NCBI GenBank assembly: GCA_009993045.1
Contig: JAACUG010000069.1
Span: forward strand, 1 to 64,000
Direction of reading: 5' to 3'
Length of the DNA stretch: 64,000 nt
Origin: Cyanobacteria bacterium CG_2015-22_32_23
GTDB lineage: Bacteria; Cyanobacteriota; Cyanobacteriia; Cyanobacteriales; Cyanobacteriaceae
Position numbers and translations under genes: made by a program. This document shows positions 3,155 to 62,147 of this stretch, in pieces. Below the pieces are notes generated by a model. It was not told where the DNA came from and searched no databases. It was given only the letters and a program-made list of their open reading frames with translations. The number at the start of each line of letters is the position of its first letter. Position 1 is the stretch's first letter.

Positions 3155-3177
3155 GGGTGAATGCCATTCACCCCTAC
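3155..3177. repeat. Dispersed GTAGGG-associated palindrome, copy 1
   Basis: GGGTGAAT and ATTCACCC form perfect 8-bp arms around a 3-nt GCC centre and are followed by CCTAC. It lies between the convergent DUF697 and gnd genes, so it may act as a stem-loop at both 3' ends. The same palindrome recurs at 62129-62147. Confidence 0.8.
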
Positions 3178-3184
3178 TTCCTCA

Positions 3185-4603
3185 TTAACCTATCCATTCG
3201 GTGTGGAAAAATTCACCTCGTGGTTTATCTGTACGCTCATAAGTGTGGGCACCAAAATAATCTCTTTGCGCTTGGGTGAGATTCTGAGGCAAACGTTCTT
3301 GTCTATAACTATCAAAGTAATTAAGAGAAGCACTAAAAGCAGGAACTGGAATCCCCATTTTATTGGCTAAAACTAAGACATCTCGCCACGCTTGTTGACG
3401 ATCAAGAATACTTTGTTTAAACTCAGAAGCTAGAAGTAAATTGGGCAAGTTAGGATTATCAGTAAAAGCTGTTTGAATTTTACCTAGAAAAGCCGCTTTG
3501 ATGATACAACCACCTTTCCAAATTCGGGCAATTTCAGGTAAATTAACGTTATAGTTATACTCCGATGAAGCCTTAGCAATTAAAGCCATACCTTGAGCAT
3601 AAGAACACATTTTTGAGCAATATAAAGCATCCCTAATTTTAGAAATATAGGTATCAACATCGCCATCAAATTTTGAGGTGATTCCTGTTAACTCCTTCGC
3701 TGCTAAAACTCGTTCTTCTTTGTAACTAGAAATAACTCTTGCATATACTGCCGCATAAATAGTAGGAATTGGCACTCCTAGTTGTAAAGAACTTACTACA
3801 GTCCAGCTTCCCGTACCTTTTTGCCCAGCAGCATCTACAATTAAATCAATTAAGTGTTTACCTGTTTCAGGATCTTTTTTCGGGAAAATATTGGCAGTAA
3901 TATCGATTAAGAAAGAATTTAACTCATCGGTAGTATTCCAATCCGTAAATACTTCTCCTAGCTTTTCATTACTCAATCCTAAGCCATTTTTCAATAAATC
4001 ATAAGCCTCTGCAATTAACTGCATATCGCCGTATTCAATGCCATTATGCACCATTTTGACGTAGTGACCTGCACCACGAGGACCAATATAAGTAACACAA
4101 GCACCATCATCTACTTGAGCGGCAATTTTGGTTAAAATCGGCTCTAATTCATGATAAGCGGCTTGAGTACCTCCGGGCATTAATGAAGGGCCATTTAAAG
4201 CACCTTCTTCGCCACCACTTACTCCCATACCCATAAACCCTAAACCAGTGGCTTCAAGCTCATTAGTACGTCTTTCTGTGTCTTCATAGAGGGAGTTACC
4301 ACCATCGATAATCATATCTCCTTCATCAAGTAACGGTTTAAGTTGTTGAATCACTGCATCTACGGGCGCACCAGCTTTTACCATTACTAATATTTTACGA
4401 GGGCGTTCGAGAGTTTGCACAAATTCTTCTAAAGAGTAAGCAGCTTTTACATCTTTACCTTGCGCTCGTGTTGCCATAAACTCTTCTGTTTTATTTGGGC
4501 TACGGTTATATACGGCGATGGGAAATCCTCTACTTTCGACGTTGAGGGCGAGATTTTCACCCATAACTGCTAATCCGATTACTCCAAAGGTTCTTTTTGT
4601 CAT
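3185..4603 (-). CDS. gnd: 6-phosphogluconate dehydrogenase, decarboxylating
   Basis: The 472-residue protein is 6-phosphogluconate dehydrogenase, which oxidises and decarboxylates 6-phosphogluconate to ribulose 5-phosphate with NADP, the third step of the oxidative pentose phosphate pathway. It has the N-terminal dinucleotide-binding motif [12 protein letters not shown] (residues 10-21), the substrate-binding VSGGEEGA near residue 130 and the catalytic segment [14 protein letters not shown] (about 180-193). The all-helical C-terminal domain with [12 protein letters not shown] is complete. Pgl, the preceding enzyme of the pathway, is encoded about 23 kb away. Confidence 0.97.
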
Positions 4604-21939: not shown

Positions 21940-21958
21940 GGGTGATGCACTGTGCACC
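21940..21958. repeat. Dispersed GTAGGG-type palindrome, degenerate copy
   Basis: GGGTGATGCACTGTGCACC is a small imperfect hairpin between tig and queF that resembles the other short GGGTG...CACCC palindromes in the window. It lacks the GTAGGG flank, so membership is uncertain. Confidence 0.4.
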
Positions 21959-22073
21959 AAATATAAATTTGATTTACTTAGTTAATCATAAAAAAAGAAA
22001 CCTAGATTAATTGATTATTAATTATAAACATCAACAATTTAAGTTTCTAGGGGATAATTTTCGTTATTAAAAC

Positions 22074-24078: not shown

Positions 24079-24082
24079 CAGG

Positions 24083-24106
24083 GCGTATTATGTTGCGCCC
24101 CTACCG
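24083..24106. repeat. Dispersed GTAGGG-associated palindrome
   Basis: GGGCG and CGCCC arms around about 10 nt, followed by CCTAC, so that the reverse strand begins GTAGGGGCG. It lies between the convergent rpsN and moaC genes. Confidence 0.65.
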
Positions 24107-29627: not shown

Positions 29628-29797
29628 TGATTTTTATAATAAAAGTTAGCAGTAAATAATCTTAAATCTTGTGAATATTGATTAATAAGATAACATAGCA
29701 ATCCTATTTAAGTTGTCAGAAAACAATAAGTTAATTTTCCCTAAGTTAAGAGTCAAAATAACTCATAAATTATTTAGGTATATTAAAGTATTAATTG

Positions 29798-30294: not shown

Positions 30295-30406
30295 GTTTTA
30301 GCAAACAAAATCGAGTCATGATAATTCTTTTTTCTTCTGTCTCCTTTTTTCCTATCTTCATCGATAATTTTATGATTCAAGGATAATTAAATTATAAATA
30401 GAAATT

Positions 30407-30425
30407 GTGGGCAATGCCCACCCTA
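30407..30425. repeat. Dispersed GTAGGG-associated palindrome
   Basis: GTGGGCA-A-TGCCCAC with 7-bp perfect arms, followed by CCTAC. It lies 24 nt after the mtnP stop in the leftward direction, so it may end or protect the mtnP mRNA. Confidence 0.8.
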
Positions 30426-30448
30426 CAGATACAGAAAAGTTAAACTTA

Positions 30449-31321
30449 TTAAAGGTATTTTTTCAGTATTTCTGTCAATTTTTGTTTCGTCTCTATAGGC
30501 GCTTTATCTAAAGGAGTAAAAATCGCTGTTTTTAAGGCGGAATGTGCTTCACTAACAAAGGGTTTACGGTTAATTAATTTTACCGTTTCCCTAATCACTT
30601 TTTGAGCATTGACGGCGTTTTGATGTAAATTAGCGATAACGGTTTCAACTGTAACATGATCATGCTCTGGATTCCAACAGTCATAATCGGTAACTAAAGC
30701 TAAAGTAGCATAAGCAATTTCCGCTTCTCTAGCAAGTTTAGCTTCTGTTAAATTCGTCATCCCGATAATACTCGCACCCCAACTACGATAAAGATTAGAT
30801 TCGGCAATGGTAGAAAATGCTGGGCCTTCCATACATACATAAGTACCACCATGATGTAAGTCAATATCAGGAAAATCTAAATTTTTGATAGCTTCATCAA
30901 GAATATTTCCTAATTGATTACAAACAGGATTTCCAAAGCCGATATGCGCCACAATTCCATCACCGAAAAAAGTTGCTTCACGATTTTTTGTGCGATCAAT
31001 AAATTGATCAGGTATAACTAAATCTAGGGGTTTAATATGTTGTTGTAGTGAACCAACGGCAGAAGCTGATACAATATACTCCACACCTAACTGTTTTAAT
31101 GCGTAAATATTAGCTCGAAAAGGTAATTCTGTGGGTAATAGATGATGATTTTTGCCATGACGAGGAAGAAAAACTACTCTAGCATTATCTAATGTGCCAA
31201 CGATAAAATTATCCGAAGGTTTCCCAAAAGGCGTATCGAGGGTAATTTCTTCAATGTCTTGTAAGGCTTCCATTTTATATAACCCACTACCGCCAATAAT
31301 ACCAATTTTGATTGCTTCCAT
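30449..31321 (-). CDS. mtnP: S-methyl-5'-thioadenosine phosphorylase
   Basis: The 290-residue protein cleaves methylthioadenosine into adenine and methylthioribose 1-phosphate in methionine salvage. It shows [15 protein letters not shown] (phosphate binding, residues 7-21), [26 protein letters not shown] (split: [13 protein letters not shown], then NIYALK), [15 protein letters not shown] (about 160-174) and [16 protein letters not shown]. These motifs separate it from purine nucleoside phosphorylase. The gene stands alone. Confidence 0.95.
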
Positions 31322-52761: not shown

Positions 52762-52956
52762 ACTCATATCTTGCACCCCATTGACTGGTTAGGGGGAGTA
52801 ATGAGTAAGAAGTAATGAGTAATGAGTTTCAGAATTGATACTAACCGCTATAAAATTGATTACCTCACTTTAGAGTATTAAGTATTTTTGTTCTGGTGCA
52901 AGATCTCAGTTACACCCCTACTATCTGTCACCTTTTATTTAGTGCAAGATGTGAGT
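52762..52956. mobile_element. MITE-like segment with inverted 15-bp ends
   Basis: ACTCATATCTTGCAC at the left and GTGCAAGATGTGAGT at the right are inverted copies (14 of 15 match), 195 bp apart. A third copy, GTGCAAGATCTCAGT, stands inside at 52896-52910. No open frame is inside. It lies between the second kinase gene and ilvE, and contains the GAGTAAT array. A non-autonomous transposon remnant is the simplest reading. Confidence 0.55.
52796..52823. repeat. Short heptanucleotide array, 4 units of RAGTAAK
   Basis: GAGTAAT, GAGTAAG, AAGTAAT and GAGTAAT in tandem, nested in the MITE-like segment. It is nearly identical to the array at 47331-47358. Confidence 0.75.
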
Positions 52957-58358: not shown

Positions 58359-58709
58359 ATAAGATTTAATGGTGTGAACAATGAACAGTTAGTTATATGA
58401 TTTAAACTTTGGAAGTTAGACAAAATTACTATTTTCTGAGTTTTTAATACTCTTTGTCGTGGGTTGTGGGCATTACCCACCCTACGTTTAGAGTTAGTGC
58501 ATAATTTTTAGACTTTTTCTAATAAGTTGATCAATAGCAATCTATGGACATTGATTTATCTCATTATTGAGTTAAAAATAGCCTTATTATGAATAAGTAT
58601 ATTCTATTAAAAATATTTAGTCGTGAATAATATTAACTGCTAATGGATTATATAAAAATTAGAATTAAATTATATCTATTTATTTTATTACCTTAAGAAA
58701 TTTATCATC
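58359..58709. other. Divergent intergenic region upstream of larE
   Basis: About 350 bp between the SH3-protein gene and larE. It contains the short palindrome listed separately and otherwise AT-rich DNA. An ATGAACAGTTA word near 58381 echoes one in the proS-comFB gap at 6795. No tRNA, riboswitch or small gene was recognised. Confidence 0.5.
58466..58484. repeat. Dispersed GTAGGG-associated palindrome, imperfect copy
   Basis: GTGGGCATTACCCAC followed by CCTAC. One base in the arm breaks the symmetry seen in the related copies at 30407 and 61014. It lies between two divergent genes, unlike most other copies. Confidence 0.65.
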
Positions 58710-59621: not shown

Positions 59622-60989
59622 ATGTATAATTCTCGAAAAACATCGGATTTGCCCCATGTCGTTATCGTTGGTGGTGGTTTTGCTGGTTTATATGCGGCAA
59701 AAGAGTTAGGAAAAGCACTGGTGAAGGTAACATTAATTGATAAGCGCAATTTTCACCTTTTTCAACCTCTTTTATATCAAGTAGCCACTGGCAGTTTATC
59801 CCCTGCGGAAATTTGTTCTCCTTTGCGGTTAGTGGTGGGTAAAAATAAAAATACCCATGTCATTTTAGATGAAGTTATCGACATCAATCCTGAAGAAAAA
59901 CAGGTAATTATGCGTGAAGGTATTTTAAATTATGATTATTTGATTATCGGTACAGGTGTAAGTCATCACTACTTCGGAAATGATCAATGGGAAAAAGATG
60001 CCCCTGGATTGAAAAGTATCGAAAATGCCCTTGATATTCGTCGTAAAATCTTCCTTGCCTTTGAAGAAGCGGAAAAAGTATCTTCTATGGAAGAAAAAGA
60101 AGAATGGTTAACTTTTGCTATTGTCGGTGGTGGCCCTACAGGGGTAGAATTAGCTGGTGCGATCGCCGAAATTGCCCATAGAATCATTAAAGATGACTTT
60201 AAAGAAATAGACACAACCAAAGCTAAAATTTTCTTAATTGAAGGGATGAATCGGATTTTACCACCTTATCCCGAAGATTTATCTCAAAAAGCGAAAGAAT
60301 CCTTAGAATATTTAGGGGTAACAGTGTTAACTAATCGGATGGTGACAAATATTGAGAAAAGTAGGGTAAATATACGTTATGGAGAAGAAGAAGAAACAAT
60401 CAAAGCTAGGACAATTTTATGGGCTGCGGGGGTAAAAGCCTCTAGTTTAGGAAAAATTATTGTGGAAAAAACTAACGCCGAAAGTGATCGAGTTGGTAGG
60501 ATTATCGTTGAGCCTAATTTAAGTATCAAAGATTATCCTAATATTTTCGTGGTGGGTGATTTAGCTAATTTCTCCCATCAAGACAATAAACCCTTGCCCG
60601 GCATTGCACCCGTAGCCATGGCTCAAGGGCAATATATGTCAAAATACATTAAAGCACAGATTAAAGGTGAAACCATCCCACCATTTCGTTATGTGGACAA
60701 AGGAAGTTTAGCCGTAATTGGGGATAATCATGCCGTTGTGAATCTTGGATTTATGAAATTATCGGGCTTTATTGCGTGGTTAGTATGGGTATTTGCGCAC
60801 ATTTATTACTTAATCGAATTTGATAGTAAATTAGTAGTGATGATTGAATGGGGATGGAATTACATTACGAGAGGAAGAGGTGCAAGATTAATTACTGGAG
60901 AAATTAGTGAGAAAAACTTGATTAATGAATCCTTTAATAATGACCATTATGCTTCTTCTTTAACGGAAAAAGAAAAAGTTGAAGTGTAA
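59622..60989 (+). CDS. Type II NAD(P)H dehydrogenase (NDH-2)
   Basis: The 455-residue flavoprotein has an FAD-binding VVIVGGGFAGLYAA (residues 13-26) and an NAD(P)H-binding FAIVGGGPTGVELAG (165-179), then ILWAAGVKAS, the FAD-contacting FVVGDLANF (about 303-311) and a quinone-binding AQGQYMSKYIK. The C-terminal 70 residues contain an amphipathic or membrane-contacting segment (FIAWLVWVFAHIYYLIEF). It oxidises NAD(P)H and reduces quinone without proton pumping. Which of the Ndb paralogues it represents cannot be decided here. Confidence 0.93.
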   Translation: MYNSRKTSDLPHVVIVGGGFAGLYAAKELGKALVKVTLIDKRNFHLFQPLLYQVATGSLSPAEICSPLRLVVGKNKNTHVILDEVIDINPEEKQVIMREGILNYDYLIIGTGVSHHYFGNDQWEKDAPGLKSIENALDIRRKIFLAFEEAEKVSSMEEKEEWLTFAIVGGGPTGVELAGAIAEIAHRIIKDDFKEIDTTKAKIFLIEGMNRILPPYPEDLSQKAKESLEYLGVTVLTNRMVTNIEKSRVNIRYGEEEETIKARTILWAAGVKASSLGKIIVEKTNAESDRVGRIIVEPNLSIKDYPNIFVVGDLANFSHQDNKPLPGIAPVAMAQGQYMSKYIKAQIKGETIPPFRYVDKGSLAVIGDNHAVVNLGFMKLSGFIAWLVWVFAHIYYLIEFDSKLVVMIEWGWNYITRGRGARLITGEISEKNLINESFNNDHYASSLTEKEKVEV

Positions 60990-61013
60990 TAATTAGGAAA
61001 GAGAATATAGTCG

Positions 61014-61030
61014 GGTGGGCATTGCCCACC
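61014..61030. repeat. Dispersed GTAGGG-type palindrome, perfect copy
   Basis: GGTGGGCA-T-TGCCCACC has perfect 8-bp arms. It lies 25 nt after the NDH-2 stop, between convergent genes, and may act as a stem-loop at the 3' end. Confidence 0.8.
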
Positions 61031-61177
61031 AAATCAATGGTTTAGTCTTGTTTTATTCTTGATAGAATTTCTAAATAATTTGTGAGAATTTTCGCTCCCT
61101 AACCTTCTAATTTTCGGATAAATTAACTCATTATTTTCTTACGACTCAAATCGGATTAATATATCTATTATTAATTT

Positions 61178-62124: not shown

Positions 62125-62147
62125 GTAGGGGTGAATGGCATTCACCC
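62125..62147. repeat. Dispersed GTAGGG-associated palindrome, copy like 3155
   Basis: GTAGGG leads into GGGTGAAT-GGC-ATTCACCC with perfect 8-bp arms. It is the inverted equivalent of the copy at 3155-3177, and lies 24 nt downstream of the argC stop in the leftward direction. Confidence 0.8.

Follow-up and report, generated by a model that had tools for sequence, protein, structure and literature searches.

GTAG-tagged REP palindromes of two families, their RAYT clades and their placement at gene ends in a cyanobacterial genome

The described repeats closest to those treated here are GTAG-12, GTAG-15 and GTAG-16, cyanobacterial members of the GTAG REP superfamily, whose hosts include Anabaena/Nostoc and Cyanothece. 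In the passages of Di Nocera 2013 (PMC3733652) that deal with them, these elements carry GTAG at one end, have a short covarying stem, occur in tens of copies, lie mostly between convergent or same-direction genes and often supply the TAG stop codon. The palindromes that we analysed resemble them in each of these respects, including the previously reported stop codon, which is the TAG of the tag itself in 4 of the 34 tabulated own-genome sites; the likeness is drawn from described features.

The window, by which we mean the whole analysed stretch of 64,000 nucleotides, is part of one contig (C57) of a 3.27 Mb genome in 142 contigs (99.83% complete, GC 32%). One of its proteins fits the cyanobacterial glutamate-cysteine ligase model TIGR02048 (632 bits), on which ground we take the host for a cyanobacterium. 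Rfam gave no match to the window at the gathering score. Its tagged palindromes are very probably mobile GTAG-tagged REPs of a known type, forming two families, A and B, that were moved by RAYT transposases, with a minority of B copies before a T-run kept as terminators. The terminator part of this explanation is weak.

Two families of palindromes in the window and the genome

The family A sequence (GTAGGGGTGAATGGCATTCACCC) is 23 nt long with a stem of 8 and a loop of 3, and that of family B (GTAGGGTGGGCATTGCCCACC) is 21 nt long with a stem of 7 and a loop of 3. The six palindromes that an initial annotation had placed at 3155, 24083, 30407, 58466, 61014 and 62125 are all present, with shifts of a few bases. 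Two are exact family A copies. One (3155..3177, minus strand) lies tag-first, 7 nt past the stop codon of a 6-phosphogluconate dehydrogenase gene (3185-4603, minus strand); the other (62125..62147, plus strand) is absent in four relatives of the genus, G001 having another repeat type there. A degenerate A-type REP with 6 pairs and a long loop (GTAGGGGCGCAACATAATACGCCC; 24081..24104, minus strand) stands tag-first, 30 nt past the moaC stop. Family B accounts for the remaining three: GTAGGGTGGGCATTGCCCACA (30406..30426, minus strand), tag-first, 22 nt past the stop of a phosphorylase-family gene (30449-31321, minus strand); GTAGGGTGGGTAATGCCCACA (58465..58485, minus strand), which has 3 mismatches and lies between divergent genes, where there is no 3' end; and GTCGGGTGGGCATTGCCCACC (61010..61030, plus strand), with the tag altered to GTCG, 20 nt past the stop of an NDH2-like gene (59622-60989, plus strand) and with a convergent gene opposite. 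A further degenerate A-type REP, GTAGGGGTGTAACTGAGATCTTGCACC (52895..52921, minus strand), is tag-first, 55 nt past a branched-chain transaminase stop.

The weaker palindrome reported at 21940 exists as a hairpin (21940..21965, minus strand), but it is terminator-like, with a T-rich tail and no GTAG/CTAC tag, and we judged it to lie outside the REP families. The GTAGGG-type flank ascribed to most of the palindromes is borne out as GTAG on five of the six tagged ones, 61010 being the exception. What did not survive is the idea of one family for all seven, since A and B track different RAYT clades and 21940 is untagged. GTAG next to a strict stem of at least 6 pairs occurs 4 times in the window, against a mean of 0.4 and a maximum of 2 in 20 dinucleotide shuffles; for at least 7 pairs the figures are 2 and 0 (again 20 shuffles).

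In the own genome, we found 18 rows for family A and 70 for family B at up to 3 mismatches, against 0 for either reversed-pattern control. The A rows include one palindrome counted again from the other strand, and 14 of the B rows are, by coordinates, the same palindrome read from the other strand, leaving about 56 places. GTAG REP elements are characterised by tens or more copies per genome, a tag (GTAG or GTGG) 0-2 nt before the stem, a short palindrome of 20-40 nt with a covarying stem, and an extragenic position mostly behind genes. A and B show these features, the exceptions in position being 58465 and a few copies inside ORFs. Across 824,332 bases of this genome, GTAG preceded a 7-bp hairpin at 2.3 per 1000 (10/4286) against a tetranucleotide median of 0.23, an absolute count inflated by the roughly half of the stretches that came from contigs known to carry A; GACC (2/691) and GTCG (4/1440) ranked above it.

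The compensating arm changes noticed in the initial annotation were confirmed as covariation in family A. Among 13 distinct own-genome A sequences, collected mostly by sequence similarity (two came through searches requiring or allowing pairing), 94.2% of cells pair, compared with 87.2% after shuffling, and the covariation score is 0.229 compared with 0.112, a value reached in 0 of 500 shuffles. Changes occur on both sides in 3 of the 8 pairs, and sliding the partner abolishes the signal. Alignment A2 was excluded from these statistics because its rows had been chosen for pairing. The cores differ while the GTAGGG flank stays the same because tag and stem foot are common and the distal stem diverges with compensation.

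Another dispersed repeat in the window, about 110 bp long, is unrelated to the palindromes (61071-61175 and 29681-29777; 71-83% identity; core ATTTGTGAGAATTTT...TTTTCTTACGACTCAAATAGGATTACTATA). The sampled part of the own genome has about ten more copies, and relatives have 31-bp cores; the repeat occurs in either orientation and in every kind of intergenic region.

RAYT clades and the spread of the repeats

The own genome has six matches to Pfam Y1_Tnp, and two of them, L023 and L024, are RAYTs (94.9 and 107.8 bits on NF047646, cut-off 80). Each is located at the start of its contig, after a short tandem array of ~30 bp units (C108:1-110 and C62:1-90, respectively) that probably broke the assembly there. 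L023 adjoins, by eye, hairpins of a third sequence. We rejected the two as likely movers of A and B, since L024 is flanked by another, GTAAAACAGGCTTCTAGCCTGT-like repeat type and neither RAYT groups close to the clades described next.

In G001, a sister species of the same genus, one RAYT (P0001) is enclosed by a pair of exact B copies in inverted orientation, and another (P0002) lies among A-type copies. Inverted flanking pairs were seen for B in G001 and for A-type repeats around P0002-clade genes; in the window's own genome, no such pair of A or B was found. On NF047646 REP_Tyr_transpos, which has a cut-off of 80, P0001 reaches 179 bits, and it matches a solved TnpA-REP chain (4er8_A, E 2e-30); P0002, with 68.6 bits, stays under that NCBIfam cut-off. 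At E 1e-10, relatives of P0001 occur in 67 of the 148 genomes of the order, distant matches included, and relatives of P0002 in 73. The same threshold returned no member of either clade from the own genome, a 142-contig assembly in which losses at contig ends are possible. The RAYT association anticipated by the initial annotation therefore holds in relatives such as G001 and not in the genome itself.

Each repeat type goes with its own RAYT clade. Our tree holds 46 RAYTs (60 fetched loci, less 14 without an intact ORF and two long ORFs, giving 44, plus the 2 own RAYTs), and the two repeat types never mix between its two main clades. A recognised tagged repeat lies within 450 bp of 31 of the 44, and none within that distance of the other 13. 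All 18 RAYTs with GTAGGGG repeats belong to the P0002 clade, and the P0001 clade holds all 8 with GTAGGGTG and all 5 with GTAGGTTG; repeat labels change 13 times on the tree, against a shuffled mean of 23.9. Such clean pairing makes these genes a natural set in which to study how RAYTs read a hairpin. A-type repeats also lie within P0002-clade RAYT ORFs (L279, L285, L286, L288, L289, L293, L296, L302, L305 and L308).

On our reading, the RAYT, a single-strand Y1/HUH transposase, would recognise GTAG together with the foot of the hairpin and would have distributed the repeats in trans. In the window's genome, A and B now look like orphan families, their cognate clades being either absent or hidden in assembly gaps. 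The related genome G004 has a broken P0001-type remnant (G004:C210:6375-6614; residues 1-80, one stop) and keeps 42 B rows; it possibly represents a stage of RAYT loss.

E. coli REPs are binding sites of DNA proteins such as gyrase, and copies kept as sites for such a protein (gyrase or a nucleoid protein), for the sake of chromosome structure, would have a known precedent there. DNA gyrase is likewise mentioned in a passage of Di Nocera 2013 (PMC3733652). The sequence of each repeat type is better explained by its link to its own RAYT clade, and we regard a role of this kind as very improbable.

Family B occurs in 13 of the 15 genomes of the host's family (2 mismatches). Its exact sequence is also found in 12 viral-contig stretches (L192-L203, IMG/VR), a possible route of spread. 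The GTAGGGGYGAATGGCATTCRCCC pattern, an A-type 23-mer, has exact matches in named genomes in at least 97 stretches, which, among the matches listed, are mostly from Okeania, Trichodesmium, Oscillatoria and other cyanobacteria. Ten of these stretches (L099, L101, L104, L138, L140, L147, L156, L172, L175 and L189) come from MAGs assigned to other phyla, with titles of Desulfobacteraceae, Dehalococcoidia, Bacteroidetes/Bacteroidales, Falkowbacteria and Gammaproteobacteria; this could be due to lateral spread or to MAG contamination. In two Okeania loci (L134:7282-7442 and L162:3221-3357), exact A-type repeats stand four in tandem, with periods of 46 and 38 bp, and a repeated terminator-like unit, CTCTTTTTTT, comes after every unit of the L162 array.

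Placement, orientation and turnover at gene 3' ends

According to the initial annotation, nearly all palindromes lie at 3' ends or between convergent genes. In the window, three are convergent (3155, 24081 and 61010) and two tandem (30406 and 62125), in keeping with that statement, and 58465, which is divergent, is not. Our genome-wide placement count covers 47 loci, to which 58465 does not belong; four of its eight rows scored as inside genes are artefacts of contig-end cuts (L066, L072, L081 and L092). The 39 intergenic own-genome copies divide into 22 convergent, 17 tandem and 0 divergent, compared with 257, 998 and 497 among 1752 random intergenic points. Random placement without covarying arms, named at the outset as the pattern that would speak against a selected or mobile element, is the opposite of what we observe: the copies are distributed in a strongly non-random way, and their arms do covary.

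The copies also have a preferred orientation. Near a 3' end, tag-first copies outnumber tag-last ones by 26:3 (B) and 11:3 (A) in the own genome, 13:5 (B) in G008, 10:6 (B) in G005 and 26:8 for A in foreign loci. Copies that lay within an ORF, at the edge of a locus or more than 100 nt from a 3' end do not enter these ratios (3/32, 1/15, 2/20, 0/16 and 91/125, respectively). Pooling the first four sets, from three genomes, gives 60:17 with p 9e-7, a value that is too small since some sites are orthologous. Within 15 nt of the stop codon, the five sets together have 52 tag-first and 10 tag-last copies. Most copies appear to become established, or to persist, in the tag-first orientation and no more than about 15 nt from the stop. 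In the literature that we searched, we saw no report on the strand orientation of REPs relative to gene ends or on their turnover at the gene ends of cyanobacteria, which does not prove its absence.

The orientation could arise at insertion: if the coding strand is exposed as single-stranded DNA at gene 3' ends and the RAYT joins the element to it, polarity would come from transcription and not from later selection. This concerns the cause of the bias only and is compatible with REP identity. Family A is biased as well, in the own genome and in foreign loci, though little conserved and without T-runs, and the related IS200/IS605 elements are described as single-strand and strand-specific in a passage of PMC8266576. 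On the other hand, no target tetranucleotide is common at the tag side among copies other than those lying tag-first near a stop, and the present data do not separate insertion from survivorship; we consider the idea possible but somewhat doubtful. The closeness to stop codons could also mean that copies within 15 nt stall ribosomes and are selected as regulators of translation, as for E. coli REPs, for which an effect near stop codons is reported in part of PMC12306157. The 52:10 count fits, but a near-symmetric hairpin would be expected to stall either way round and the majority of near-stop sites are unconserved, which makes selection for stalling unlikely.

Selection for termination is not supported as the cause of the bias. 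T-runs follow 15/49 tag-first and 3/14 tag-last B copies and 0/11 tag-first A copies; because they are not clearly commoner tag-first and A has almost none, terminator selection fails to explain the whole orientation bias. The arrangement of an intrinsic terminator, a GC hairpin with a U-tract immediately after it, is found in a subset of B and not in the repeats overall, and 30406 alone among the window's tagged copies passes a simple terminator scan.

We then compared retention at 34 own-genome gene ends with a tag-first copy up to 40 nt from the stop (10 A and 24 B, 23 of the latter with an ortholog), counting a copy as kept if it was tag-first in at least one of the genus relatives G001-G004. 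The automatic orientation label assigned the opposite strand to a few copies that are near-palindromic or decayed (genes 8, 10 and 2.10), and these were left uncorrected. A copy is kept at 11 of 23 B ends and 1 of 10 A ends (p 0.054). Among B copies, those followed by TTTT are kept at 6 of 7 ends, compared with 5 of 16 for the others (p=0.027, a small test).

It is tempting to read the palindromes as ordinary intrinsic terminators, alike by convergence and without mobility. They do sit behind stop codons and between convergent genes, and B copies at genes 10, 12 and 18 have T6-T8 at their end and persist in relatives though the tag or the loop decays. (Gene 10 we take, from its C-terminus, to resemble groEL.) Convergence would not readily give tens of identical 21-23 nt copies with a nearly invariant GTAG, nor would it readily place exact copies on both sides of RAYT genes in inverted orientation; the T-run is missing from most copies, and A is rarely found at the same gene end in relatives. 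We consider this reading quite improbable. It seems far more likely that the palindromes are mobile REPs, among which a minority of B copies before a T-run is kept across species boundaries, most likely as intrinsic terminators, the remaining copies being probably weak 3'-end hairpins or neutral.

Turnover at gene ends is seen in the replacement of one repeat by another. The asd gene end has A in the own genome and a GTAAAACGGGC repeat in G001, similar swaps were seen by eye at genes 1 (G008), 13, 15, 17 and 20, and from one species to another a gene end can carry unrelated REP families. These swaps fit mobile elements sharing one niche, some later retained as terminators. We sought exact empty sites of A and B in relatives and obtained none, because the relatives' intergenic DNA is too diverged; no insertion was observed directly.

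Significance and comparison with known REP systems

The mobile, REP-like character that the initial annotation had offered as one option is supported by the GTAG tag, the copy number, the extragenic placement, the covarying stem and the exact copies flanking RAYTs in a sister species. The repeats are of a known kind; their strict placement and the apparent loss of the mover enzyme are worth a closer look. We would suggest, with more doubt than confidence, that gene 3' ends form a polarised niche in which unrelated RAYT-driven REPs arrive tag-first behind stops and replace one another, those with a T-run becoming fixed as terminators. If so, RAYT elements would continually provide new transcript ends, and hairpins that land in a fixed orientation, some of them becoming terminators, would offer an origin for transcript 3' ends that can be tested. 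According to a passage of a 2026 study (PMC13289151), canonical termination accounts for a minority of operons in one member of the phylum, Synechococcus elongatus.

Family B has a near counterpart in Haemophilus influenzae and H. parasuis, where the REPs quoted in part of Nunvar 2010 (PMC2817692), GTAGGGTGGGCTTcAGCCCACC and GTAGGGTGGGTCTTGACCCACC, are almost the same as B and flank a RAYT. Those hosts are Gammaproteobacteria, whereas here B resides in cyanobacteria and its cognate RAYT is undetectable in the own genome. The RAYTs themselves fall near two TnpA-REP subclasses characterised in the relevant sections of Quentin 2018 (PMC6006769): P0001 has the DHLH..YIHYNP motifs of subclass 2.2 and P0002 the NHFH..YIINNP motifs of subclass 2.4. 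The latter is described there as abundant in Cyanobacteria with REPs inside the gene, as in the in-ORF repeats seen here; subclass 2.2 is tabulated as Proteobacteria, in contrast to the 67 of 148 genomes of this order with P0001 relatives (E 1e-10, distant matches included). The E. coli REP/BIME system likewise has hairpins outside genes and close to stop codons, in association with TnpA-REP. It differs in forming BIME arrays, whereas the copies here are mostly single units (an impression from the alignments), and in its host, ours being a cyanobacterium, of a phylum reported in a passage of PMC13289151 to lack Rho.
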